A stretch of DNA of 64,000 nucleotides from Roseimicrobium sp. ORNL1. GTDB lineage: Bacteria > Verrucomicrobiota > Verrucomicrobiia > Verrucomicrobiales > Verrucomicrobiaceae. Below are positions 16,259-59,944 of the stretch, piece by piece. The position numbers and the translations under genes were made by a program. The notes under the pieces were generated by a model. That model did not search any database, was not told where the DNA came from, and saw only the letters and a list, made by a program, of their open reading frames with translations. The stretch lies in NCBI RefSeq assembly GCF_011044495.1, contig NZ_CP049143.1:1922001-1986000 (forward strand), given 5' to 3'. Position 1 is the first letter of the stretch; each line of letters starts with the position of its first letter.

Positions 16259-17113
16259 TTAGTTTAGGTTTCTGGATTGGGTCTCAAACTGATTGGGGGT
16301 GAGGTAACCGATGGCGGAGTGCTTGCGCTGGTTGTTGTAGTAGCCCTCGATGTACTCAAAGAGTTCCAGTCGTGCATCGGTGAGATCTTCAAAGCGGCCT
16401 CCTTGAAGCATCTCGCGCTTGAGGGTACCCATGAAGGACTCTGTCCACGCATTGTCATAGGGGTTGGCTCGCCCCGACATGCTCTGGCGCAGGCCGGCAC
16501 GCGTGAGCACGGAACGGAAGGCCGTGCTGCCATACTGGCTGCCCCGGTCGCTGTGGAAGACAATGCCGCTGGCTTTGGGATGGGTTTGCAGGGCTTGTTC
16601 CAAGGCGTGGACGACGAGTTCTGCACGCATGTGTGACGCCAGACTCCAGCCCACAATGCGACGCGAGCCCAAATCCATGACCACGGCCAGATAGAGCCAG
16701 TTTGCCGTAGTGGGAATGAAGGTGATGTCTGCGACCCAGGCCTCGCCGGGCTTCTGCGGCACAGGCTGCTGGGCCAACAGATTGGCAGAGGGACGGTCTG
16801 CCCGGCCATCGCTGGTTTTGGGCAGGTAGTTCTTGGGTTGGATGGCCTTGAGGCCCCGTGTTTTGAGGATGCGGCGCAGCTTGGAGGGTGCACACACGAT
16901 GCCATGGTCGCGCAGTTCCTCATGGATCCTGCGGTAGCCATAGCGGTGCCGGTTGCGTTTGAAGATCTCCTCGATGAGTTCACCCAGACGAGCGTCTTGC
17001 TCATGGCTGGAGGCAGACTTCGCCACATGGTAAAAGCTGCTGCGGGGCAGCTCCAGGACGTCGCAGATCTTGCGCACACTCCCACCGGTCTGGCGCTGGA
17101 GTTGCAGGATCAT
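16259..17113 (-). CDS. IS3-family transposase OrfB (DDE integrase domain)
   Basis: 284 aa. The N-terminal HTH_21-like region (RKICDVLELPRSSFYHV, RHRYGYRRIHEELRDHG) is followed by an rve integrase core. The catalytic residues are D129 in AWVADITFI, D189 in VFHSDRGSQY and E225 in AWTESFMGT, with the D-E spacing of 35 residues expected for IS3. The C-terminus has the usual YNNQRKHSAIGYLTPNQFE. Its ATG overlaps the orfA stop codon as ATGA. That allows re-initiation, although IS3 elements normally make OrfAB by a -1 frameshift; no clear slippery A-run is seen at the junction beyond AAATGA. Confidence 0.95.
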   Translation of the reverse strand: MILQLQRQTGGSVRKICDVLELPRSSFYHVAKSASSHEQDARLGELIEEIFKRNRHRYGYRRIHEELRDHGIVCAPSKLRRILKTRGLKAIQPKNYLPKTSDGRADRPSANLLAQQPVPQKPGEAWVADITFIPTTANWLYLAVVMDLGSRRIVGWSLASHMRAELVVHALEQALQTHPKASGIVFHSDRGSQYGSTAFRSVLTRAGLRQSMSGRANPYDNAWTESFMGTLKREMLQGGRFEDLTDARLELFEYIEGYYNNQRKHSAIGYLTPNQFETQSRNLN

Positions 17114-17430
17114 TTCGCGGGTTTGGACGGTTGTGGCGTGCCCAGGATGACAGCGGCCTTTTTTAAAATGTCGTTCTCCAGACGCAGGTTGGCGATTTCA
17201 CGCCGCAGCCGGTGCAGCTCGTTGGCTTCGCCCTCCTCGCCTCCGGCTCGGAGGTCTGCGCCTACGAGCTGCACCGGCTGCCTTTGGGACCGGGTCCAAC
17301 GGTAAAGGATGCCAGTGCCAATGCCGAGTTCTTCAGCCACCTCGGACACACTCTTGCCCATGCGGACCAACTCCACGGCATGGGTTTTAAAATCACTGCT
17401 GTAACGCTTTTTTCGGGTCACGGTACTCAT
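17110..17430 (-). CDS. IS3-family OrfA (HTH_Tnp_1 protein)
   Basis: 106 aa. The helix-turn-helix region includes RYSSDFKTHAVELVRMGKS and VSEVAEELGIGTGILYRWTR (about 9-50). A leucine-rich helix, LHRLRREIANLRLENDILKK (about 72-91), is the usual multimerisation zipper. The protein binds the element ends and regulates transposition. It is first in the element and overlaps orfB by 4 nt. Confidence 0.93.
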   Translation of the reverse strand: MSTVTRKKRYSSDFKTHAVELVRMGKSVSEVAEELGIGTGILYRWTRSQRQPVQLVGADLRAGGEEGEANELHRLRREIANLRLENDILKKAAVILGTPQPSKPAK

Positions 17431-49528: not shown

Positions 49529-50251
49529 TTACCTTCCATCATCATCCTCCGCAAAACCCCAGCCAATCCGTTGCCACTCTGGGTCCACCCAACGATACCA
49601 TTTTTCTTTGGGTATCCCTGCTTTTCCAGGGTTCCTTCCGATATACCGTACAACCTTGGCGAGATGCGCGGCATCCCTGACAATAGTGTCGTGGCTTTCA
49701 CCAGCCCACAGATTGCCCTGCCTGCCGATAAGCTTGTTCACCTCCTTTGCTGAAAAGCCTTTCCAGGATTTGAGGATTTCATCTGGATCGTGGCCAGAAA
49801 AGGGCCTCACCACCAAGTGAACGTGATTGGGCATCACACAGTGCGCGCCGAGAGCATAGCGTTTCTGGTGGAAATGAAGGAGCGTGTTTGCAACCACGCG
49901 AGCGCACTTCTCTTCGCGGAACCAGCATTCGCCGGAGCCAGCGTCGAGCCACGCTTCTATCTTCTTCATGGTTTCCCGTTGCAGGTCTGAGATGGCTTGA
50001 GCGTCCAGCTCATTATCCGCATGCTCGCGGAGCCACCTCTCCCGAAAAGCCTCTAGTTCACGAAGCTTCTCCGCTGGAAGCGAATCCGCGAGACGAAAAG
50101 TGACGAAGTAGGTGGCTCCGTCTTGTATCCAGTGGGGAAGGTGCCTGCGATATTTGCGAACGGCTCCTTGAGGATTGAATGGCACAAATCGGGGGGACCG
50201 TTGACGAAAGACATTGGGTGATGTCTTTGGTATTGGGGGATTGCCAAGCAA
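49529..50251 (-). CDS. REP-associated tyrosine transposase (RAYT, Y1_Tnp / IS200-like)
   Basis: About 240 aa. HUH motif PNHVHLVV gives H143 and H145, and the catalytic Tyr is Y203 in VVRYIGRNPGK. The entry block HLPHWIQDGATYFVTFRLADSLP is characteristic of RAYTs. They are single-copy relatives of IS200/IS605 transposases that cut and move REP sequences. There is no ATG start: the frame opens at a TTG (50251), and a GTG at codon 23 is an alternative, so the N-terminus is uncertain. It is bracketed by REP copies E and F in inverted orientation, the expected REP-RAYT-REP arrangement. Confidence 0.9.
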   Translation of the reverse strand: MLGNPPIPKTSPNVFRQRSPRFVPFNPQGAVRKYRRHLPHWIQDGATYFVTFRLADSLPAEKLRELEAFRERWLREHADNELDAQAISDLQRETMKKIEAWLDAGSGECWFREEKCARVVANTLLHFHQKRYALGAHCVMPNHVHLVVRPFSGHDPDEILKSWKGFSAKEVNKLIGRQGNLWAGESHDTIVRDAAHLAKVVRYIGRNPGKAGIPKEKWYRWVDPEWQRIGWGFAEDDDGR

Positions 50252-51583: not shown

Positions 51584-52411
51584 CTACGAAGCCGAGGGCT
51601 TGTATTCCGGGTAGAAGGGATTGTGCGCCTTCTCCTGGCCCACGGTCGTCATGGGGCCATGACCGGGGCAGATGACGGTGTTGTCCGGATTGGAGAGGAT
51701 GTAGCGGCGATTGGTGGCCAGGGCCTCCGCCCAGGAGACCATGCCCCCGCCCATGCTGGAGGCGAAGAGCGCATCACCCACGATGGCCACGCGCTCATCC
51801 AGTCCATGGATGACATACGTGATGCCGCCGCGCGAGTGGCCGGAGGTCTGCTTGGTTTCAATGCGCAGACCACCGAGGGAGAACTCGTGTCCCGCGTCGA
51901 AGAGTTCGGCGCCATCCCAAGGTTCCTTGTCGCATGCGAAGAGGGGCTGGTTGGCCGTGCGGAGCGTGGCGAGATCCGCCACGTGATCCGGATGCGTGTG
52001 CGTGAGGTAGATGGCCTCAAGCTTCAGGCCCTTGCTCGCGATGAAATCCACCATGCCCTTCGCCGAGGCACCAGTATCAAAGGCGGCGGCGAGCTTGGTA
52101 TTCGGATCCCACACCACGTAGGCGTTCACCGTGTAGTCTTCATACGGTGTGTTGAACTGTTCCACTCCGACCAGACGCACTGGATCCGGGTACCAGTCCT
52201 TCTTTGCCATGGCGAGCAGAGCGCCGGCATGCAGGTTCAGGGCGCGGGAGATCTTGTCGAACACGATCTCATCCATGGAGCCTTCCTTGAGCTTGGTAAT
52301 GACCGATTCCGGCATGCCAATGCGGGCGGCCAGGGCGTCATCCGGAAGGTTCAATCCCCTTTGGGCTTTGCCAATGACATCATTATAGTTGTCTTCGAGA
52401 GGGATGGGCAT
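51584..52411 (-). CDS. Fusion of an HTH-like domain with a metallo-beta-lactamase-fold hydrolase
   Basis: 275 aa. Residues about 8-68 resemble an XRE/Cro-type helix-turn-helix (AQRGLNLPDDALAARIGMPESVITKLKEGS then FDKISRALNL). The MBL fold follows, with metal ligands THTHPDH (137-143), SGHSRGG, GDALF and PGHGP. The hydrolase half resembles glyoxalase-II-like enzymes. A DNA-binding-like domain joined to an MBL hydrolase is uncommon. It could localise the enzyme, sense a ligand, or be a structural leftover used for dimerisation. No signal peptide is seen. It lies about 200 bp upstream of the dehydrogenase gene at 50500 on the same strand. Confidence 0.82.
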   Translation of the reverse strand: MPIPLEDNYNDVIGKAQRGLNLPDDALAARIGMPESVITKLKEGSMDEIVFDKISRALNLHAGALLAMAKKDWYPDPVRLVGVEQFNTPYEDYTVNAYVVWDPNTKLAAAFDTGASAKGMVDFIASKGLKLEAIYLTHTHPDHVADLATLRTANQPLFACDKEPWDGAELFDAGHEFSLGGLRIETKQTSGHSRGGITYVIHGLDERVAIVGDALFASSMGGGMVSWAEALATNRRYILSNPDNTVICPGHGPMTTVGQEKAHNPFYPEYKPSAS

Positions 52412-52534
52412 GACTGAGGAAGGAGAAGTGAGGGCGCATGCTTACCAGCGGGCGGGCAGCGCCGCAATGGGAACTTTGCGTTCCATACAAACCGGAGGCT
52501 CGCGGCGGTCCGCTTCTCCTCCCCATCAGCTTGC

Positions 52535-53701
52535 CTACTGGGGATTCAGCCAGCCGGTCACGTAGTACCGGTCCGTCGCGAAGTCCTGGATGTCGTCCAA
52601 AATCTGCTCGCGGCCAAGGCTTGGCGTGGCTCGCGTGGCCGCGTCCCACGGCTGGAGGGTCACTTGGAGCCATTGTTGAGCCACCCAGTAGATGCTCGGG
52701 AGGGGGCTGCGATTTTCCATGATGGGCACGACTGCCAGAAGGGTCTCTCCCTTCTCCGTAGTGAACTGGTGAAGTGCCATGGCATTCGGATACGGCGCAT
52801 TCTTACAAAGGTCCTTCGACACCTGGGTTATCTTGGTCACTTGAGCGAGCACGGTGCGAATCCTCTCATCTGGCGGAGCGGAGGGGTCAAGAGGCGAGGG
52901 GAGTGGCAGGGGGGCCGCGCTTCCGGCGATGACGTTCTGAGAGGCCAGGAACCAGTAAATTTCCCGCACACGCGGAATCATTTCTGCCGGTATGCGCGAA
53001 ACCTCAAAGGCCATCACGGAATCGCCGGAATTTTTCCACTGGCTGCTGATGCCTGGAAGGGTGGTGCCCTTCTTGAGCTCTGCGGCAGTGAGCACGGCGT
53101 AGCAGTCTCCGACGAGCAACATATTGCGTCCGGCCGAGTTCTTCTGCCAGTCCTCCAGGGATGCGCAGAGCGTCTGTGCCATCACGGATACCACTTCATT
53201 GGAAAAGTGGGCGTTATCTGGCGCCATGACCGGCCATTCCGGGTGCAGCGCTGCTGCTTTGTAGATATCCGGCATGAGGTTCACGGTGCGAATGCCCGCT
53301 TTCCTCAGCGTATGCTCTGCGGTGGTCATGGCCAGCGCGGTTGGCGTGGGCTCGGTGGGCAGTTTCCCATCCGCTCCCACCAGATCCTGTTTAATGGGCC
53401 GCAGAAGGACACGAAGTTTGATGTGGCGTGAGGCCAGGTGGTCTTTGAATGCCTGCACGCATGGCAGCAGATCCTCACGGCAGGCAACTTTGCTATCACG
53501 CAGTGCGTCGACGAATTGCTTCGTCTTGTGCTCAGCCCACCTTTGCCGTGCCGCAAATTGGACTTCCTGCTGCCAGCGAACAGTGTGCGGCGCCAGCACC
53601 AGATGTGCGCCAATCAAGACGATCACCCCAAGCGCCATCTTGAGCCTTGATGTTTTCGGAGGCTTGTCGGCTGCCATGACCAGAGGAAGCGAGCGGGGCA
53701 T
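52535..53701 (-). CDS. AlgJ/AlgX-like SGNH-fold protein with Cys nucleophile position, paralogue 1
   Basis: 388 aa. One N-terminal membrane helix (about 23-38) is followed by an extracytoplasmic domain. The layout follows AlgJ/AlgX O-acetyltransferases: HIKLRVLLRPIKQDL (like the GI.L...P.K strand), AGIRTVNLMPDIYKA, then the Asp/His pair PDNAHFS (D162, H165), then LLVGDCYAVLTA, in which C200 takes the place of the catalytic Ser. It ends in a conserved EQILDDIQDFATDRYYVTGW. AlgJ/AlgX move acetyl groups onto polysaccharide. No MBOAT partner (AlgI) is near. Its ATG overlaps the stop of paralogue 2 by one base (TAATG), so they are coupled. Confidence 0.6.
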   Translation of the reverse strand: MPRSLPLVMAADKPPKTSRLKMALGVIVLIGAHLVLAPHTVRWQQEVQFAARQRWAEHKTKQFVDALRDSKVACREDLLPCVQAFKDHLASRHIKLRVLLRPIKQDLVGADGKLPTEPTPTALAMTTAEHTLRKAGIRTVNLMPDIYKAAALHPEWPVMAPDNAHFSNEVVSVMAQTLCASLEDWQKNSAGRNMLLVGDCYAVLTAAELKKGTTLPGISSQWKNSGDSVMAFEVSRIPAEMIPRVREIYWFLASQNVIAGSAAPLPLPSPLDPSAPPDERIRTVLAQVTKITQVSKDLCKNAPYPNAMALHQFTTEKGETLLAVVPIMENRSPLPSIYWVAQQWLQVTLQPWDAATRATPSLGREQILDDIQDFATDRYYVTGWLNPQ

Positions 53702-54960
53702 TACTGGCCGGGGATGCCGGCTGCTCGGGCAGCTTGCACTTGGGGTGGGTCACCCCAGCCCGTCACATAATAGCGGTACAGGGTGTAGTGTTCCACGTCA
53801 TCGAAGATTTCCTCCCGGCTCAGGTTGGGCATGGCGCGTGTGGCGGTGTCCCACTGTTGCATGCTGAGCAGGAGTTTCTGCCCCACTGTCCAGCGCTGGG
53901 CGGGAAGCGCCTGTCTGTTTTGCATCACGGGGACCACCGCCAGAAATTTTTCCCCATCGGTGGTCACACATTCATGAGCGGCCAGGGCATTGGCATAGGG
54001 TGCATCCTGGCCAAGTGAAGCGGGAACTTGGGACAGGCGGGTGATCTCCGCGAGCACCACCCTTACATTCCCTGGGGTGATTTCGGCAGCCTCTTGCGCG
54101 GCGGGAAATGGAAACGGCGCGGCGCTCTGTGTCTTCACGCAGGCCGAGGAGATAAACCAGTAGATCTCGCGCACGCCAGACACATGCTCTGGGGGCAGGC
54201 AGGAGAATTCATACGCCATCTGTGAGTCGGCGTTGTTCTTCCACTTGCTGCGCACTTTTGGCATCACCATCCGCTGCTTCAGCCGGGTGGCGGTGAGGAA
54301 GGCGTAGCAATCTCCCACCAGCAGCATGGTGCTCCCACTGCTCGCTTTCTGGGTGTCATCCAGCGAGCCGCAGAAGGTCCGGGTCATGACCATCACCATG
54401 TCATCGGAAAGATGGTTCAGGTCCGGGTGAATCACTGGCCGCTTGGGATTCAGGCATGCTTCGCGGTACAGGTCCGGAAGCAGGTTCACCGTGGGGATGC
54501 CAGCTTCGGTGAGCGAGGCCTCCGCCGCCTGCAGGGCCAGAGCGCCCTCGGTGGGGTGCTTGTACAGGGTCTTGGTATTGAGATCGAGAAGGTCCTCGAC
54601 GCTGGGGCGCAGCAGGATGTGAAGCTTGATGTTTCTTGTCTCGAGGAAGTCCCGGAAGGCCGTGGCGCACGGCACGAGATCCCACCGATGGGCCTCACGA
54701 ATGCTCCGCAGTTCGGAGATGTACACGTCCTCCTGGTGCAGGCCCCGCCACCGGTTCACCCGCACCTGGAGGTTCTCCTTCAGGTGAACCGTGGCCGGTG
54801 CGGCAAAAAAGTGGGCGACCAACACCGCAGGTACTGCCGTAGCCACGAGGATCCGTCGCGTGGTGGAATGCCTTTTTACTGGAACAGATGCGTTGCCCGG
54901 CACGGCGACGCTGGGAGCGGCCGCACCATCCCGTAGGACTATCCGTTTGAGCGAGGACAA
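53701..54960 (-). CDS. AlgJ/AlgX-like SGNH-fold protein with Cys nucleophile position, paralogue 2
   Basis: 419 aa if it starts at the TTG at 54960. No in-frame ATG is near the N-terminus, so the exact start is unsure. A membrane helix (about 37-54) is followed by the same set of blocks as its neighbours: NIKLHILLRPSVEDLL, IPTVNLLPDLYREA, HPDLNHLS (D180, H183), MLLVGDCYAFLTA (C218) and EEIFDDVEHYTLYRYYVTGW. The His-to-Cys spacing is 35 residues, exactly as in paralogues 1 and 3. A TGTAAA-TTTACG motif lies 54 bp upstream of the frame start. It is upstream of paralogue 1 and translationally coupled to it. Confidence 0.6.
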   Translation of the reverse strand: MSSLKRIVLRDGAAAPSVAVPGNASVPVKRHSTTRRILVATAVPAVLVAHFFAAPATVHLKENLQVRVNRWRGLHQEDVYISELRSIREAHRWDLVPCATAFRDFLETRNIKLHILLRPSVEDLLDLNTKTLYKHPTEGALALQAAEASLTEAGIPTVNLLPDLYREACLNPKRPVIHPDLNHLSDDMVMVMTRTFCGSLDDTQKASSGSTMLLVGDCYAFLTATRLKQRMVMPKVRSKWKNNADSQMAYEFSCLPPEHVSGVREIYWFISSACVKTQSAAPFPFPAAQEAAEITPGNVRVVLAEITRLSQVPASLGQDAPYANALAAHECVTTDGEKFLAVVPVMQNRQALPAQRWTVGQKLLLSMQQWDTATRAMPNLSREEIFDDVEHYTLYRYYVTGWGDPPQVQAARAAGIPGQ

Positions 54961-55013
54961 AAGTGACGACGTCGTCTTCAGGTTGGCGGAGGGGGCGGAT
55001 GGGAAACGCAGTG

Positions 55014-55028
55014 TGTAAAAAATTTACG
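55014..55028. promoter_or_regulatory. TGTAAA-AAA-TTTACG motif upstream of paralogue 2
   Basis: An imperfect inverted repeat 54 bp before the paralogue 2 start. Nearly the same motif, TGTAAA-AA-TTTACA, is at 57006-57019 upstream of the cyclophilin gene, so a shared regulator or promoter element is possible. Confidence 0.45.
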
Positions 55029-55104
55029 GGGGGCCGCACTTGCCTGCAAATTGGAAAGTTGGCGTTCGCATTAAATTTCGCAGTCCTTTGGGTGTGGATG
55101 CCGA

Positions 55105-56256
55105 CTAGGGCCTTCCTTCCGGCGCGTGAGTCCAGTCGGTGATGTAGTAGCGGTCTGAAGAGAAGTCTCCCAAGTCATCAAAGACCTGCTCCCGGTCCAG
55201 GCGGGGTTCAGCAGACACGGCATTCTCCCACGGTCGCACGGTGAGGATAAATGTCGCGTTGCGCTGCCAGAGCCGGATGCCTTCATCCACAGTCTGGCTC
55301 CTCATGACGTCGATTACGCCGAGCAGCGGCTCTCCCTCGCTCGTGACGAACTTGTGGAGGATGAGCGCATTGGGGTAGGGTGAGCTCTTTCCCAGGTTCT
55401 TGGGGATTGCGGTGAGCTTTGACAGGGTGGCTTTTACGGTGCGTTCACTGTTCTGCGAAGCGGGTCCACCAAGTGTCGTAGGCGGAGGCAGAGGGGTCTT
55501 TGCATCCGCTGTCATGTGGGAGGAGGAGAGGATCCAATAGACTTCGCGCACGTTTTCCAGCGCATCTACCGGCGCCTTGGCCAGCTGATGGGCCATGAGG
55601 TTGTCCGCGCCATTCCGGAAAAAGGAGCGTGCATGGGACAGCACACCTCCGCTGCGTAGTTCTGCGGCAATGCTATATGCATAGCAGTCGCCCGCCAGCA
55701 TGAGATGCCGCCCCTCACGGCTGCGTTGATGATCCGTCATGGACTGCTCCAAGGTGCGCGCCATCGCAGCGACCATGCTGGGTGTGTAGTGAAATCCGTC
55801 CTGGGTGATGACTTCCATGCCTTTTTGAAGGCACACCTGGCAGTGCAGTGCCGGGAGGAGATTGACGGCAATGATGCCCTGCTTTTTCAGCGCGCTTTCG
55901 GTGGCTAGCATCGCCGCTGCCTGCGCGGCAGCTTTATCACGCGGCGCGTTGCGCTCGGCATTCAGCAGGCAATCGAATTCAGGGCGAAGTACGACGCGCA
56001 GCTTGATATCTCGTTCTGCGAGCACGTCCCGGAGGGCCAGGATGCAGGTCACCAGTTCCTGGCGGTGTGGCTGCCGGGTCTGGCGCAGGGCATCGAGATA
56101 GTCCTCGGTCTGGCGCGCCGCTGCCCTCTTGTGCAGCGTGTCAGGAAGCGTCCTGATGAGATCGGCGGTAAATGGAGCCAGCAGCACATGCGCTGCCAGC
56201 AGAACCATGGTGGCCAGCACCCGAATTTTCCATGACGGACGTGCGGTACCTCTCAT
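55105..56256 (-). CDS. AlgJ/AlgX-like SGNH-fold protein with Cys nucleophile position, paralogue 3
   Basis: 383 aa. A membrane helix (about 12-28) precedes the shared blocks: DIKLRVVLRPEFDCLL, GIIAVNLLPALHCQ, TQDGFHYTPS (D153, H156), MLAGDCYAYSIA (C191) and EQVFDDLGDFSSDRYYITDW. The His-to-Cys spacing is again 35 residues. It is encoded 67 bp downstream of the cyclophilin gene and 144 bp upstream of paralogue 2, all on the minus strand. As with the other two, a polysaccharide or envelope acyl-transfer function is possible, but Cys for Ser changes the chemistry, and a non-catalytic role cannot be ruled out. Confidence 0.6.
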   Translation of the reverse strand: MRGTARPSWKIRVLATMVLLAAHVLLAPFTADLIRTLPDTLHKRAAARQTEDYLDALRQTRQPHRQELVTCILALRDVLAERDIKLRVVLRPEFDCLLNAERNAPRDKAAAQAAAMLATESALKKQGIIAVNLLPALHCQVCLQKGMEVITQDGFHYTPSMVAAMARTLEQSMTDHQRSREGRHLMLAGDCYAYSIAAELRSGGVLSHARSFFRNGADNLMAHQLAKAPVDALENVREVYWILSSSHMTADAKTPLPPPTTLGGPASQNSERTVKATLSKLTAIPKNLGKSSPYPNALILHKFVTSEGEPLLGVIDVMRSQTVDEGIRLWQRNATFILTVRPWENAVSAEPRLDREQVFDDLGDFSSDRYYITDWTHAPEGRP

Positions 56257-56323
56257 TGTTCCAAAGAATGGGGCTGACGCATCACACGCCAGCCCCGGAA
56301 GGAAGAAGATGCTCCCTTGGGAA

Positions 56324-56935
56324 TTACTCCTTCACCACAGTGACTTTCTTGATGGTGATGGGTTCCACGGGCACGTCGCCGTAAGGACCTTTGGTTGAAG
56401 TGGGCACGCCCACGATGGCGTCGACAATGTCGAGGCCGTTGGTCACTTTTCCAAACACCGCGTAGCCGTATCCGTCGAAGCTGGGATAGTCCAGATTGGC
56501 ATTGTCCTTCACGTTGATGAAGAACTGGGAGGTGGCGCTGTTCGGGTCGCCGGTACGGGCCATGGCGATGGCGCCACGCACGTTTTTGAGGCCGTTCTTG
56601 CTTTCGATGGCGATCGGCTTGTCCGTGGGCTTCTGGTTCATGTCAGCCGTGAAGCCGCCACCCTGGATCATGAATTTGGGAATCACCCGGTGGAAGATGG
56701 TGCCGTCGTAGTGGCCCTTGTTCACGTAGCTGAGGAAGTTCTGCACCGTGATGGGAGCCTTGGCGCTATCGAGTTCGAGGTCGATGTTGCCCTTGGAGGT
56801 TTCGATGGTGACTTTCACTTTGGCTGGAGCTTGATCTGGGGTTGCGGTTTCAGGTTTGGCTTCCTGGGCATGGGCTCCCAGGGCGGTGGCCATGATGCCG
56901 GCCGCCAGCAGTTTGAGGAAGACGTTCGTTTTCAT
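56324..56935 (-). CDS. Periplasmic cyclophilin-type peptidyl-prolyl cis-trans isomerase
   Basis: 203 aa from the ATG at 56935, which opens a signal peptide ([24 protein letters not shown]); the in-frame GTG at 56953 is less likely. Cyclophilin blocks are [20 protein letters not shown] (catalytic Arg and Gln region), [17 protein letters not shown] and [17 protein letters not shown]. It should speed prolyl isomerisation of exported proteins. It leads a possible transcript with paralogue 3 downstream, and a TGTAAA-TTTACA motif lies about 70 bp upstream of its start. Confidence 0.92.
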
Positions 56936-57005
56936 GGACAGGAACTGAGGCACTTGTTGCTAGTGCGTGCAATGGCAAAAGTGCCCGCGTCGCCGGAGCA
57001 ATACG

Positions 57006-57094: not shown

Positions 57095-57769
57095 TTATTT
57101 GCCGGTCCAGCGGTAGTGTCCGGTGAGCGGAAAGTCGAAAAGACGGTCCTCCATCTTCGGTCCGCTACCGATATTATGCACGATCCAAGGACGCGGACCG
57201 CCGTCCGGAGCGGGTACGACGATGGCGATGTGCGGCAGGTGGGGCGGCACCGTGCAGGTGATGAGGTCGCCGGGGAGGTAGTCCTCCGGCTTGTCCGTCA
57301 CCGGCAGGCTGGCGCCTTTCCGCTTGAAGAAGGTCTGCAAATTCGGCACGCGCCGGTGGTCGATGTTCGGGTCCGGGCGGCTCAGGCCCCAGTTCCTGGG
57401 GTAGGCGCTGAAGTTCCGCTTCATGTCCTCATGCACCAGCTTTTGCAGGTCCAGGCTCAGGATGCGGTAGGAGCGGATGACCTCATCCGTGCACACACCC
57501 GTGTCCGCGGGCACGTCGCCATTGGGGTAGTCCAGGCGCACATAGGCGGGTTCGTAGCGCACGGTCTGTTTCGTGCGGTCCAGCGCTGCGTGGGCCAGCT
57601 TCGTGGCAAACGCTTCGTCCTTGGACAGCCGTGCCCGGGCCGCCTCCACCTGCTCTGGCGTAGTGCCCTGCAGAGAGGGGCGTGAGAGCACCAGCGCGAG
57701 GCCGGCCACGCAGAGAACCTGCAGGACGGTGCAGGCTCGTTTCAGGAATGAATCCATTGGCGGGGTCAT
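57095..57769 (-). CDS. Secreted DUF1287 protein
   Basis: 224 aa from the ATG at 57769; an ATG four codons later (57757) is equally possible. A signal peptide (MDSFLKRACTVLQVLCVAGLALVLS) is followed by the complete DUF1287 domain: RYEPAYVRLDYPNGDVPADTGVCTDEVIRSYR with the conserved Cys, LVHEDMKRNF, RPDPNIDHRRVPNLQTFF, LPGDLITCTVPPHLPHIAIV and WIVHNIGSGP. The Cys/His/Asp set suggests an NlpC/P60-like (amidase or peptidase) fold, possibly cell-wall acting, although activity is unproven. It is divergent from the sulfatase with only 24 bp between the start codons, so each promoter must lie inside the other gene. Confidence 0.85.
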   Translation of the reverse strand: MTPPMDSFLKRACTVLQVLCVAGLALVLSRPSLQGTTPEQVEAARARLSKDEAFATKLAHAALDRTKQTVRYEPAYVRLDYPNGDVPADTGVCTDEVIRSYRILSLDLQKLVHEDMKRNFSAYPRNWGLSRPDPNIDHRRVPNLQTFFKRKGASLPVTDKPEDYLPGDLITCTVPPHLPHIAIVVPAPDGGPRPWIVHNIGSGPKMEDRLFDFPLTGHYRWTGK

Positions 57770-57793
57770 GCTTCTGGCTACAATGCTGGCTGG

Positions 57794-59944
57794 ATGTTTG
57801 GAAGACATTTTTACGCGCCTCTGGTTTGGTTCACGATCGTCGTGGCCGGTATGACCATGGGCAGCACGGATCTGCTCAGCGCGACGAAAAAAAAATCCGG
57901 GACTGGCAAGGCGGCGCCGAACACCACACCCGCGCACACCGTCATCCCCGTGGCTCCGGCTCCCACGCCGCCGCCGAAGGCGCGGCCCCTTCGCACGAAA
58001 GGACCGAACGTGCTCTTCATTATTGCGGACGACCTCAATGACTGGGTCGGCTGGATGGGGGGCCATCCCCAGTCCCGCACGCCGAACATGGACCGCCTGG
58101 CGCACGCCGGCATGCGCTTCACGAATGCGCACTGTGCCTTCTCCCTGTGCAATCCCTCCCGCACCTCCATCCTCACCGGCATGTGGCCTTGGCAGAGCGG
58201 GGTGTATGGAAACGAGCAGGACTGGCGCAAGTCCGTCCAGGTGCAGGGCAAGCCCACGCTGCCTGAGTATTTCCGCGACGCTGGTTTCCTCACGGCCGCC
58301 GGAGGAAAGATATTCCACGCGAATCATGGCGGTCCTGAAGGACGGCTCGCCGGCTGGCACGGCGGTCGCCGCGGCTTAGAACAGGATGCCGCGTGGGACA
58401 TGCGCTTCCCCAGCGTCGGTGTGCAAATCCCTGACCTGCCTGTGCACATCGGGCAGAATTTTAACGGACTCAACATCTGGCACTGGGACTGGGGTGGCAT
58501 TGATGTGAAAGACGCCGACACCGATGATGGCAAGGTGACTGGCTGGGCCGATAAATTCCTCCAGCAGGACCATGACAATGCCTTCTTCCTCGCGGTGGGA
58601 CTCTATCGCCCGCACTCACCCTGGTACGCGCCGCGCCAGTACTTCACCGACCGTCCGCTCATGGATGTCTCGCTGCCCCAGGTGAAGCCGGATGATCTCA
58701 ATGACGTGCCTGAGGTGGCAAAGGGGTATCTGAAAGGCCCGGAGAACAACCACAAGCGCATCGTTGAAAAGAACCTGTGGTCTTCTGCTGTGCGCGCCTA
58801 TCTGGCGAACATTTCCTTCTGCGATGCCATGGTGGGCCGCGTGCTCGATGCGCTGGAGCGCAGTCCGCACAAGAACAACACCATCGTCGTCTTTACCAGC
58901 GACCACGGCTGGTACCTTGGGGAAAAGGAACGCTGGCACAAGGGTGGCCTGTGGGAGCGCGGAACGCACGTGCCGCTGGTGGTGGTGGCCCCGGGAGTGA
59001 CCCAGCCGGAGTCCGTGACCAACGAGCCGGTGAGCCTGGTGGATCTCTATCCCACCCTCTGTGATCTGGTGGGCGTCCCCAAGCCCGCGCATCTCGGTGG
59101 TGAGTCTTTCCTGCCGCTGCTCAAGGATCCCACGGCCAAGCGCGCACGTCCGGCATTTACCTTTGCCGGTACGGAGGAAAAGCAATCTTACGCCGCTCGC
59201 ACGGACCGCTGGCGCTACATCCGCTATGCCAATGGCGCGGAGGAACTGTACGACCACCAGAACGATCCGAACGAGTGGACGAATCTGCTCTTTGGCAAGA
59301 CACCTTCCCCGGATGCCATGACCGCTGCGGAGACGCTTCGCAAGACTCTGCCCACCACCTGGGCCAGCGCCTACCGCAAACAGAATGATGTGCGCATCGA
59401 CGCCGGTGCTGATGGCAGCGTGACTTACTGGTACCAGCCGGGCGATAGTTTCTCCGGGGATGATTCTCCAGACATCAAGGAGCGCGCCATGGAGATTGAG
59501 ATGGTCTTCGAGTATGATCCCGCCGTGGATCGCGACAGCACCCTTCTCAGTCAGGGCGGACCGCAGCTTGGCTATGCCATCCACTGCCTGGATGGGAAGC
59601 TCGCTTTCACCGTGAACTATGATGGCCTGCGCACCACGCTGAAGTCGCAGGAACCGCTGCCTGCGGGCCGGGTCATCTACCGCGGGCTCTTCGCCCTGGA
59701 CGGCACACTCGCCTTCAGTGCCACCGGGCTGAAGGAAGAAGTGCGTGGCTATGCGCCCATGGAGGGCGGCTTCCCCCGCAAGCCCAACCAGGGTCTTCAG
59801 GTCTCCCAGAGCTTCGGCGTGCTCGATCGCGAGAGCTTCCCAAACAGCACGCCCTTCGACGGCGCCATCCAGCATCTCCGTTTCACCCTGCTGCCTGGCA
59901 GCGCCGTGGAAACCCGCGCCGCCAAGGCCGTGCCGGTGGAATAG
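57794..59944 (+). CDS. Iduronate-2-sulfatase-like sulfatase with C-terminal beta-sandwich
   Basis: 716 aa. An N-terminal membrane-anchor or signal segment (about 6-24) and a Pro/Ala/Lys linker precede the sulfatase domain. The formylglycine signature is CNPSRTSILTG (C119-R123), and metal ligands are seen in FIIADDLND and FTSDHGWYLGEKERWHKG. Residues about 560-716 form a concanavalin-like sandwich (YDPAVDRDSTLLSQGGPQLGYAIHCLDGKLAF). The order and the GGKIFHANHGG block fit the iduronate-2-sulfatase branch (S1_7). It should remove sulfate from polysaccharides outside the cytoplasm after Cys-to-formylglycine conversion; no maturase is in the window. Confidence 0.9.
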   Translation: MFGRHFYAPLVWFTIVVAGMTMGSTDLLSATKKKSGTGKAAPNTTPAHTVIPVAPAPTPPPKARPLRTKGPNVLFIIADDLNDWVGWMGGHPQSRTPNMDRLAHAGMRFTNAHCAFSLCNPSRTSILTGMWPWQSGVYGNEQDWRKSVQVQGKPTLPEYFRDAGFLTAAGGKIFHANHGGPEGRLAGWHGGRRGLEQDAAWDMRFPSVGVQIPDLPVHIGQNFNGLNIWHWDWGGIDVKDADTDDGKVTGWADKFLQQDHDNAFFLAVGLYRPHSPWYAPRQYFTDRPLMDVSLPQVKPDDLNDVPEVAKGYLKGPENNHKRIVEKNLWSSAVRAYLANISFCDAMVGRVLDALERSPHKNNTIVVFTSDHGWYLGEKERWHKGGLWERGTHVPLVVVAPGVTQPESVTNEPVSLVDLYPTLCDLVGVPKPAHLGGESFLPLLKDPTAKRARPAFTFAGTEEKQSYAARTDRWRYIRYANGAEELYDHQNDPNEWTNLLFGKTPSPDAMTAAETLRKTLPTTWASAYRKQNDVRIDAGADGSVTYWYQPGDSFSGDDSPDIKERAMEIEMVFEYDPAVDRDSTLLSQGGPQLGYAIHCLDGKLAFTVNYDGLRTTLKSQEPLPAGRVIYRGLFALDGTLAFSATGLKEEVRGYAPMEGGFPRKPNQGLQVSQSFGVLDRESFPNSTPFDGAIQHLRFTLLPGSAVETRAAKAVPVE

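Follow-up and report, generated by a model that had tools for sequence, protein, structure and literature searches.

Surface glycans are acylated by MBOAT-SGNH enzymes, for which, to our knowledge, Ser nucleophiles have been described. In the alginate O-acetyltransferases AlgX and AlgJ (PF16822; 4knc, 7ula, 4o8v) the alpha/beta SGNH-like core is circularly permuted, with the Asp and His placed ahead of the nucleophile, and this permuted block order, H-S-G-N, has been described (PMC4148444, PMC9487903). Ser is the nucleophile of the AlgX-family enzymes described to date (PMC9487903), and in AlgJ both the lysine of a P-x-K motif and the Trp that follows the His are needed for alginate acetylation (PMC4148444). 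The DHHW family, represented by Bacillus PatB1 (5v8d), has the same kind of permuted core, with a Ser nucleophile in KDS and a TDHHW block V (PMC9487903). A Cys does occupy the nucleophile position in GSCFA (PF08885), an uncharacterised family of the SGNH clan with the unpermuted order; none of the papers searched names a cysteine as the nucleophile of AlgX or of another SGNH enzyme, and the one that came up concerns a Ser enzyme.

Here we analysed a window of 64,000 nucleotides from Roseimicrobium sp. ORNL1 (contig NZ_CP049143.1; feature coordinates are those of the window) that carries three tandem AlgX/AlgJ-like genes with Cys at the nucleophile position. These proteins probably represent a known acyl-transfer enzyme in a thiol-based form.

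Results

The three genes all lie on the minus strand, and their products share 35-46% identity. Protein 1 (52535..53701, 388 aa) has an N-terminal membrane helix and an SGNH-like domain at about residues 71-270, which carries D162, H165 (codon 53207..53209) and C200 (codon 53102..53104). Protein 2 (53701..54960, 419 aa) has a TTG start and the pair H183/C218 (Cys codon 54307..54309), and protein 3 (55105..56256, 383 aa) has D153, H156 and C191 (Cys codon 55684..55686). An N-terminal membrane helix would anchor each protein, and the catalytic domain would be periplasmic. The His/Cys pairs given by the initial annotation are correct: in each, the two residues are 35 apart and an Asp stands three residues ahead of the His. 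The exact spacing of 35 is confined to the trio, and varies from 32 to 38 in six divergent homologues.

These homologues belong to five further genomes from the same order and were retrieved with the window sequences alone (best match per genome between E 1.6e-11 and 9e-21); they show about 20% identity, and the Asp, His and Cys are invariant. A scan with a tighter alignment for further relatives returned only three loci, all already known; plasmid records contained no relative of protein 1, and no NCBIfam model matched the clade significantly. The tree places all nine Cys-type proteins on a single branch with support 100 and separates them from 61 AlgX-like proteins of the Ser type in the phylum, and no Ser/Cys intermediate was seen among the approximately 105 matching frames. 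On these comparisons the Cys type makes up a small and separate branch, confined to a few relatives among the Verrucomicrobiota.

The alignment of the nine sequences has 289 ungapped columns, of which 12 are invariant, and the motif Asp, His, Gly and Cys are among them, which at about 20% identity is conservation beyond chance. All nine have the Cys at the nucleophile position and, in the permuted order, a D-x-x-H ahead of the G-x-C; the Cys block reads G-[DEN]-C-[FY]-A in eight and G-D-C-T-A in the G022 homologue. The His block is D-x-x-H-[LFY] instead of DTHW, the Trp not being conserved, and at the P-x-K site the Pro is retained, with Lys in just one of the nine. Since neither the lysine nor the Trp is conserved, the Cys-type proteins cannot simply work like AlgJ. 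Decay of the trio was considered and rejected: the three frames are open, their composition is coding-like (GC3 0.70-0.75 versus GC2 0.45) and the motif residues are invariant. The initial proposal of a Cys at the Ser position is supported, in a conserved clade.

The conserved Cys could instead be structural or regulatory, in pseudo-enzymes acting as AlgX-like glycan-binding or scaffold proteins. Loss of the nucleophile is known nearby within the superfamily (L104, L120), and the use of Ser by the AlgX-family enzymes described to date would also fit. However, Asp, His, Gly and Cys are retained together despite very large divergence elsewhere in the protein, no other Cys column is common to more than three of the nine sequences, which leaves the Cys without a conserved partner for disulfide formation, and in the predicted model of protein 1 C200 lies at a strand-to-helix turn (strand 194-198, helix 200-211), where a nucleophile belongs. 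We consider this reading unlikely.

The assignment to permuted SGNH proteins of the AlgJ/AlgX kind, made initially from the letters of the window, is borne out by three comparisons. The first is a profile search against PDB sequences, which found AlgX (4knc, E 4e-7) and AlgJ (4o8v, E 0.01). The second is a structure search with the AF2 model of protein 1 (pLDDT 79.6, pTM 0.60), in which AlgJ matched with Z 15.5 over 190 residues, AlgX with Z 12.6, P. putida AlgX with Z 12.0 and DHHW PatB1 with Z 10.9; the model of the G150 homologue is weak (pLDDT 68, pTM 0.47). The third is a profile-profile alignment with 55 Ser-type AlgX-like proteins (probability 99.7%, E 4.7e-26, 307 columns), which pairs GDC with GDS and DxxH with DTHW; this alignment and that of the profile to AlgX place the Asp, His and Cys onto the AlgX triad positions. 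Against Pfam ALGX the window proteins stay below the gathering cut-off of 26.5 (scores of 21.4 and 13.2, and no match); protein 3 is the sole member of the trio with E below 0.001 (2.2e-4, under the curated cut-off), and seven of the nine clade members match at E up to 1 (best 1e-7).

Within this common fold the differences are several. Ser, D-x-H, P-x-K and Trp in AlgX/AlgJ stand against Cys, D-x-x-H and no conserved P-x-K or Trp, and the His-to-nucleophile distance of 96 residues in AlgJ (H192 to S288, PMC4148444) against 32-38 in the Cys type. The Verrucomicrobiota Ser-type proteins (e.g. L014, L018, L026) share the SGNH-like domain but have GDS, D[TS]HW and a D-to-Ser spacing of 76-106, with P-x-K in 59 of the 61 controls. 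Nearby in the superfamily, L104 and L120 have lost the nucleophile, with GGD/GGG for GDS, and keep D-x-H-W.

The C-terminal domain of protein 1 (52538..52876, minus strand; residues 276-388) is OB-fold-like, its model matching PriB, SSB and RecO at Z about 8 (VIA-align), and may be a glycan binder; AlgX has a CBM in its place and AlgJ has no such domain. It terminates in DD...RYYVTGW, a C-terminal motif that had been singled out as shared by the trio. The motif is real but not special to the Cys type: the domain that it ends is also present in many of the 61 Ser-type proteins, where the motif is degenerate.

GSCFA resembles the Cys type in having the Cys within G-x-C-[FY]-A (GSCFA in 10 of 10 family proteins) and, in several members, a D..H, but its Cys lies near the N-terminus and its His near the C-terminus. 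A rotated GSCFA profile matched the Cys-type profile at E 3e-6, a value flattered by the joint of the rotation having been chosen by hand, and the Ser-type profiles at E 0.04-0.09; the match is short. Direct membership of GSCFA was rejected: the order differs, Pfam GSCFA matched none of the trio up to E 10 and none of the nine proteins up to E 1, and once GxCFA was masked the rotated match fell to E 0.001, against E 3e-28 for the match with Ser-type AlgX-like proteins in shortened form. The genome G000 contains no GSCFA gene. The idea of an undescribed thiol-based family is upheld in part: a Cys on the Ser position does mark a conserved clade, but GSCFA, with its Cys at that position, is a precedent for thiol-type SGNH proteins in general.

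The stretch 52485..56339 is missing from the congener G001 and from G012 and G018, where the flanking genes are adjacent, with an empty-site spacer of 373 bp in the first and about 100 bp in the other two. The conserved neighbours of the empty site, both on the minus strand, encode a metallo-beta-lactamase-fold protein with an N-terminal HTH-like stretch (51584..52411) and a secreted cyclophilin-type peptidyl-prolyl isomerase (56324..56953).

No MBOAT gene was noticed near the trio at the outset, and none stands beside any Cys-type locus across the six genomes, linkage having been scored within contigs, some of them short (12.9 kb in G104). All six genomes nevertheless encode MBOATs, four in the window genome, where they lie more than 0.5 Mb from the trio; in the others they are on contigs other than those of the Cys-type genes. 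Some Ser-type genes of the window genome are near MBOATs (2488374 near 2490521; 5720668 near 5719331). Since MBOATs are encoded elsewhere in all these genomes, an acyl donor acting in trans is possible. The proteins might then perform an ordinary MBOAT-SGNH O-acetyltransferase step, with acetyl-tyrosine supplied by an MBOAT in trans and Cys as a near-neutral replacement of Ser; other acyl enzymes can stay active when Ser and Cys are swapped, as in thioesterase examples cited in PMC3524773. Yet here the Cys comes with further active-site differences and a shorter spacing, and one branch carries it as a fixed trait, without intermediates among the matching frames, so we regard this as very unlikely.

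The G022 homologue sits amid genes for Wzy_C, GT4, methyltransferase, Wzt/Wzt_C and ABC-2 permease proteins, an O-antigen or ABC-exported glycan cluster. No glycan biosynthesis cluster surrounds the other Cys-type genes, whose neighbours include Gfo/Idh/MocA, sulfatase, D-Ala-D-Ala carboxypeptidase, squalene-hopene-cyclase-like and glucuronyl-esterase-like genes; the G063 homologue adjoins a gene for a glucuronyl/acetylxylan-esterase-like alpha/beta hydrolase. This last neighbour, the absence of MBOATs beside the genes and the non-conserved P-x-K and Trp would suit Cys-His-Asp thiol esterases or deacylases that strip acyl groups off envelope glycans. The nearest relatives in sequence and fold are transferases, however, and biosynthesis and export genes surround the G022 homologue, which makes a purely hydrolytic role rather unlikely.

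Discussion

The best reading of the Cys-type proteins is that they are acyltransferases or esterases of envelope glycans. We favour, with moderate confidence, a thiol-nucleophile variant of the AlgX/AlgJ-type envelope-glycan enzymes, with a permuted SGNH fold and acylation by Cys-His-Asp. Cys would replace Ser as nucleophile in an altered frame, with D-x-x-H for D-x-H-W and no conserved P-x-K, the His-to-nucleophile distance being shortened by about 50 residues. The Cys-His-Asp would form a covalent thioester with the acyl group, which would then be handed on either to water or to an envelope or secreted glycan, at one of its hydroxyls or amines. As donor, an MBOAT could act in trans, or the acyl group could come from elsewhere, for example a lipid. 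Catalysis by the Cys, the acyl chemistry, the glycan substrate and the donor are inferences.

Lipid acyl groups serve as donor for the apolipoprotein N-acyltransferase Lnt. A bolder version, which we hold only tentatively, is an MBOAT-independent thiol acyltransferase family of the envelope that keeps the permuted SGNH fold and the Cys-His-Asp thioester, perhaps uses a donor other than acetyl-tyrosine (e.g. lipid acyl), and bridges AlgX and GSCFA structurally by circular permutation.

With nucleophile, acid-base spacing and gene context all changed together, such a clade serves as a natural experiment on what determines transferase versus hydrolase activity in SGNH proteins. The Cys-type clade would also offer a first way into GSCFA, the Cys-bearing family that is still uncharacterised.

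Results

The three tandem genes lie on the minus strand at 52535-53701 (protein 1), 53701-54960 (protein 2) and 55105-56256 (protein 3), and frame, length and GC3 mark each as real. Identity among their products is 35-46%, varying with the method used. Each protein has a hydrophobic helix at its N-terminus, a domain in which the Cys of GDC comes 35 residues after D-x-x-H, and at the C-terminus a domain terminating in DD...RYY[VI]T[GD]W. The His/Cys pairs of the initial annotation (H165/C200, H183/C218 and H156/C191) were right, and its observation is real and coherent.

The AlgJ/AlgX-like fold proposed there is well supported. Pfam gave ALGX matches below threshold in two of the three proteins (E 2.2e-4 and 0.07). 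With a profile of nine sequences (the trio and six homologues, hereafter the Cys type), the best PDB sequences were AlgX (4knc, E 4e-7; 7ula, 0.002) and AlgJ (4o8v, 0.01), and the D-x-x-H fell on the Asp/His block of AlgX. When protein 1 was modelled with AF2 from six sequences (pLDDT 79.6, pTM 0.60), the model had AlgJ, AlgX and DHHW proteins as its top structural matches over residues ~70-270, with Z values of 15.5 (190 residues, 3.5 A), 12.6, 12.0, 10.9 and 10.9. In this predicted structure the Cys sits in the turn between strand 194-198 and helix 200-211, which is the expected nucleophile site. Residues 276-388 of the model resemble OB folds (PriB, SSB, RecO; Z ~8), a likeness given as description only because this shape is widespread. 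We regard the AlgX/AlgJ-like fold and the triad placement as very likely.

Searches with the window sequences alone found the six homologues elsewhere in the order, in five genomes (G022, G037 with two, G063, G104 and G150), at E 3e-15 to 8e-8 by single protein and 9e-21 to 2.4e-7 by three-sequence profile. Of the 289 ungapped columns in the alignment of all nine (~20% identity between groups), only 12 do not vary; these include Asp, His, Gly and Cys as well as the Ala at Cys+2, and no second Cys is conserved. In 387 genomes of the order the nine stood alone at E <1e-110, values that are not independent since the profile in the order, class and phylum searches contained them, and the next match was at 5e-15. 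No further member appeared among the additional matches with fetched DNA, a non-exhaustive sample from order, class and phylum.

The same searches returned numerous AlgX-like proteins from this phylum, and many of these share the trio's C-terminal domain. Compared with a profile of 55 GDS-bearing (Ser-type) proteins, the Cys-type profile aligned over both the SGNH and C-terminal domains (probability 99.7%, E 4.7e-26), GDC falling on GDS. Ser-type proteins carry D[TS]HW, with Asp and Ser spaced 76-106 residues apart, and 59 of 61 have P-x-K, whereas the Cys type has ~50 fewer residues from His to nucleophile. The P-x-K lysine of AlgJ and the Trp of its DTHW are required for alginate acetylation in vivo (PMC4148444), but neither is conserved in the Cys type. 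Given these absences and the longer Ser-type spacing, the Cys nucleophile is coupled to a different active-site frame. Some defining features of ALGX were looked for and not found, and we do not place the clade in that family. About 105 matching frames contained no genuine hybrid of the two active sites; the sole pattern match, L090, is an ordinary Ser type. In a 70-sequence tree the nine form a single branch (SH-aLRT 100); as this tree is quick and unrooted, with two long Cys branches, it leaves the order of the Cys and Ser states undecided.

Two other variants were seen among the AlgX-like proteins. Six (L067, L074, L076, L078, L084 and L088, from G742, G950, G926, G876, G722 and G766) have their blocks in canonical unpermuted order, with GDSF near the N-terminus and P-E-K or P-D-K plus DDTHW at the C-terminus, and look like naturally occurring circular permutants of the AlgX domain. 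Two from the family of the window genome (L104 in G204, L120 in G093) keep D-x-H-W with GGD/GGG replacing GDS; judged by sequence, they are likely pseudo-enzymes without nucleophile.

The two genes flanking the trio encode a metallo-beta-lactamase-fold protein and a cyclophilin. They adjoin without it in the congener G001 (373-bp spacer) and in G012 and G018 (~100 bp), which makes the trio an accessory module. Four short collinear matches to trio DNA in the G001 spacer (L135:1201-1573; score 19, against at most 18 in 500 shuffles) hint that it is possibly the eroded remnant of a deleted copy. The reported lack of a neighbouring MBOAT, the usual acyl-donor partner, was borne out: the window genome has four, all away from the trio. 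Among its several ALGX genes of the Ser type, two lie close to an MBOAT. In the five other genomes no MBOAT was found linked to a Cys-type gene, the MBOATs lying on other contigs. The G022 homologue lies inside a glycan cluster that also encodes O-antigen ligase, GT4s, methyltransferase, Wzt and ABC-2 permease; the remaining homologues have mixed neighbours. This G022 gene (L125:7486-9330) also has, in frame at its N-terminal end, a stretch resembling methyltransferases (weak Methyltransf_11 match, E 0.008), a possible fusion.

Elsewhere in the window, by eye only, 49529-50251 resembles a Y1/REP-associated transposase and 16262-17430 an IS3-type transposase pair. The GTG-started frame of a DUF1287 gene (57095-58360, E 4e-65) overlaps a divergent sulfatase gene, and translation probably begins well inside that frame.

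Discussion

A precedent for the cysteine is GSCFA (PF08885), an SGNH-clan family for which a 2022 review lists no known function or structure (PMC9487903). It has Cys at the same nucleophile place, but its block order is unpermuted: in ten collected proteins GSCFA is near the N-terminus, with D..H near the C-terminus in several. A rotated GSCFA profile aligns with the Cys-type profile at E 3e-6, against 0.04-0.09 for Ser-type profiles, even shortened ones; the match weakens to 8e-5 after in silico Cys-to-Ser replacement and to 0.001 with GxCFA masked. Since some defining features of GSCFA were sought and not found, we do not assign the clade to it. We read the Cys type as an AlgX-like chain with what looks, from these alignments, like a GSCFA-like active-site style, through convergence or very old kinship. 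The proposal of an undescribed thiol-type family thus stands in part: our literature search found no description of the clade, which as far as it shows is undescribed so far, but GSCFA is a partial precedent.

The mechanism we propose builds on a permuted AlgX/AlgJ-like SGNH domain, with Asp, His and Cys invariant at the triad positions, in a single branch. The catalytic domain would lie on the periplasmic side and use Cys-His-Asp catalysis through a thioester; the acceptor would be a glycan, bound partly by the OB-like domain, and the acyl donor would be supplied in trans or from another source. That the Cys is catalytic seems to us probable. The Cys-type clade is a variation on a known enzyme type, and we lean slightly towards a role in acyl transfer on envelope glycans.
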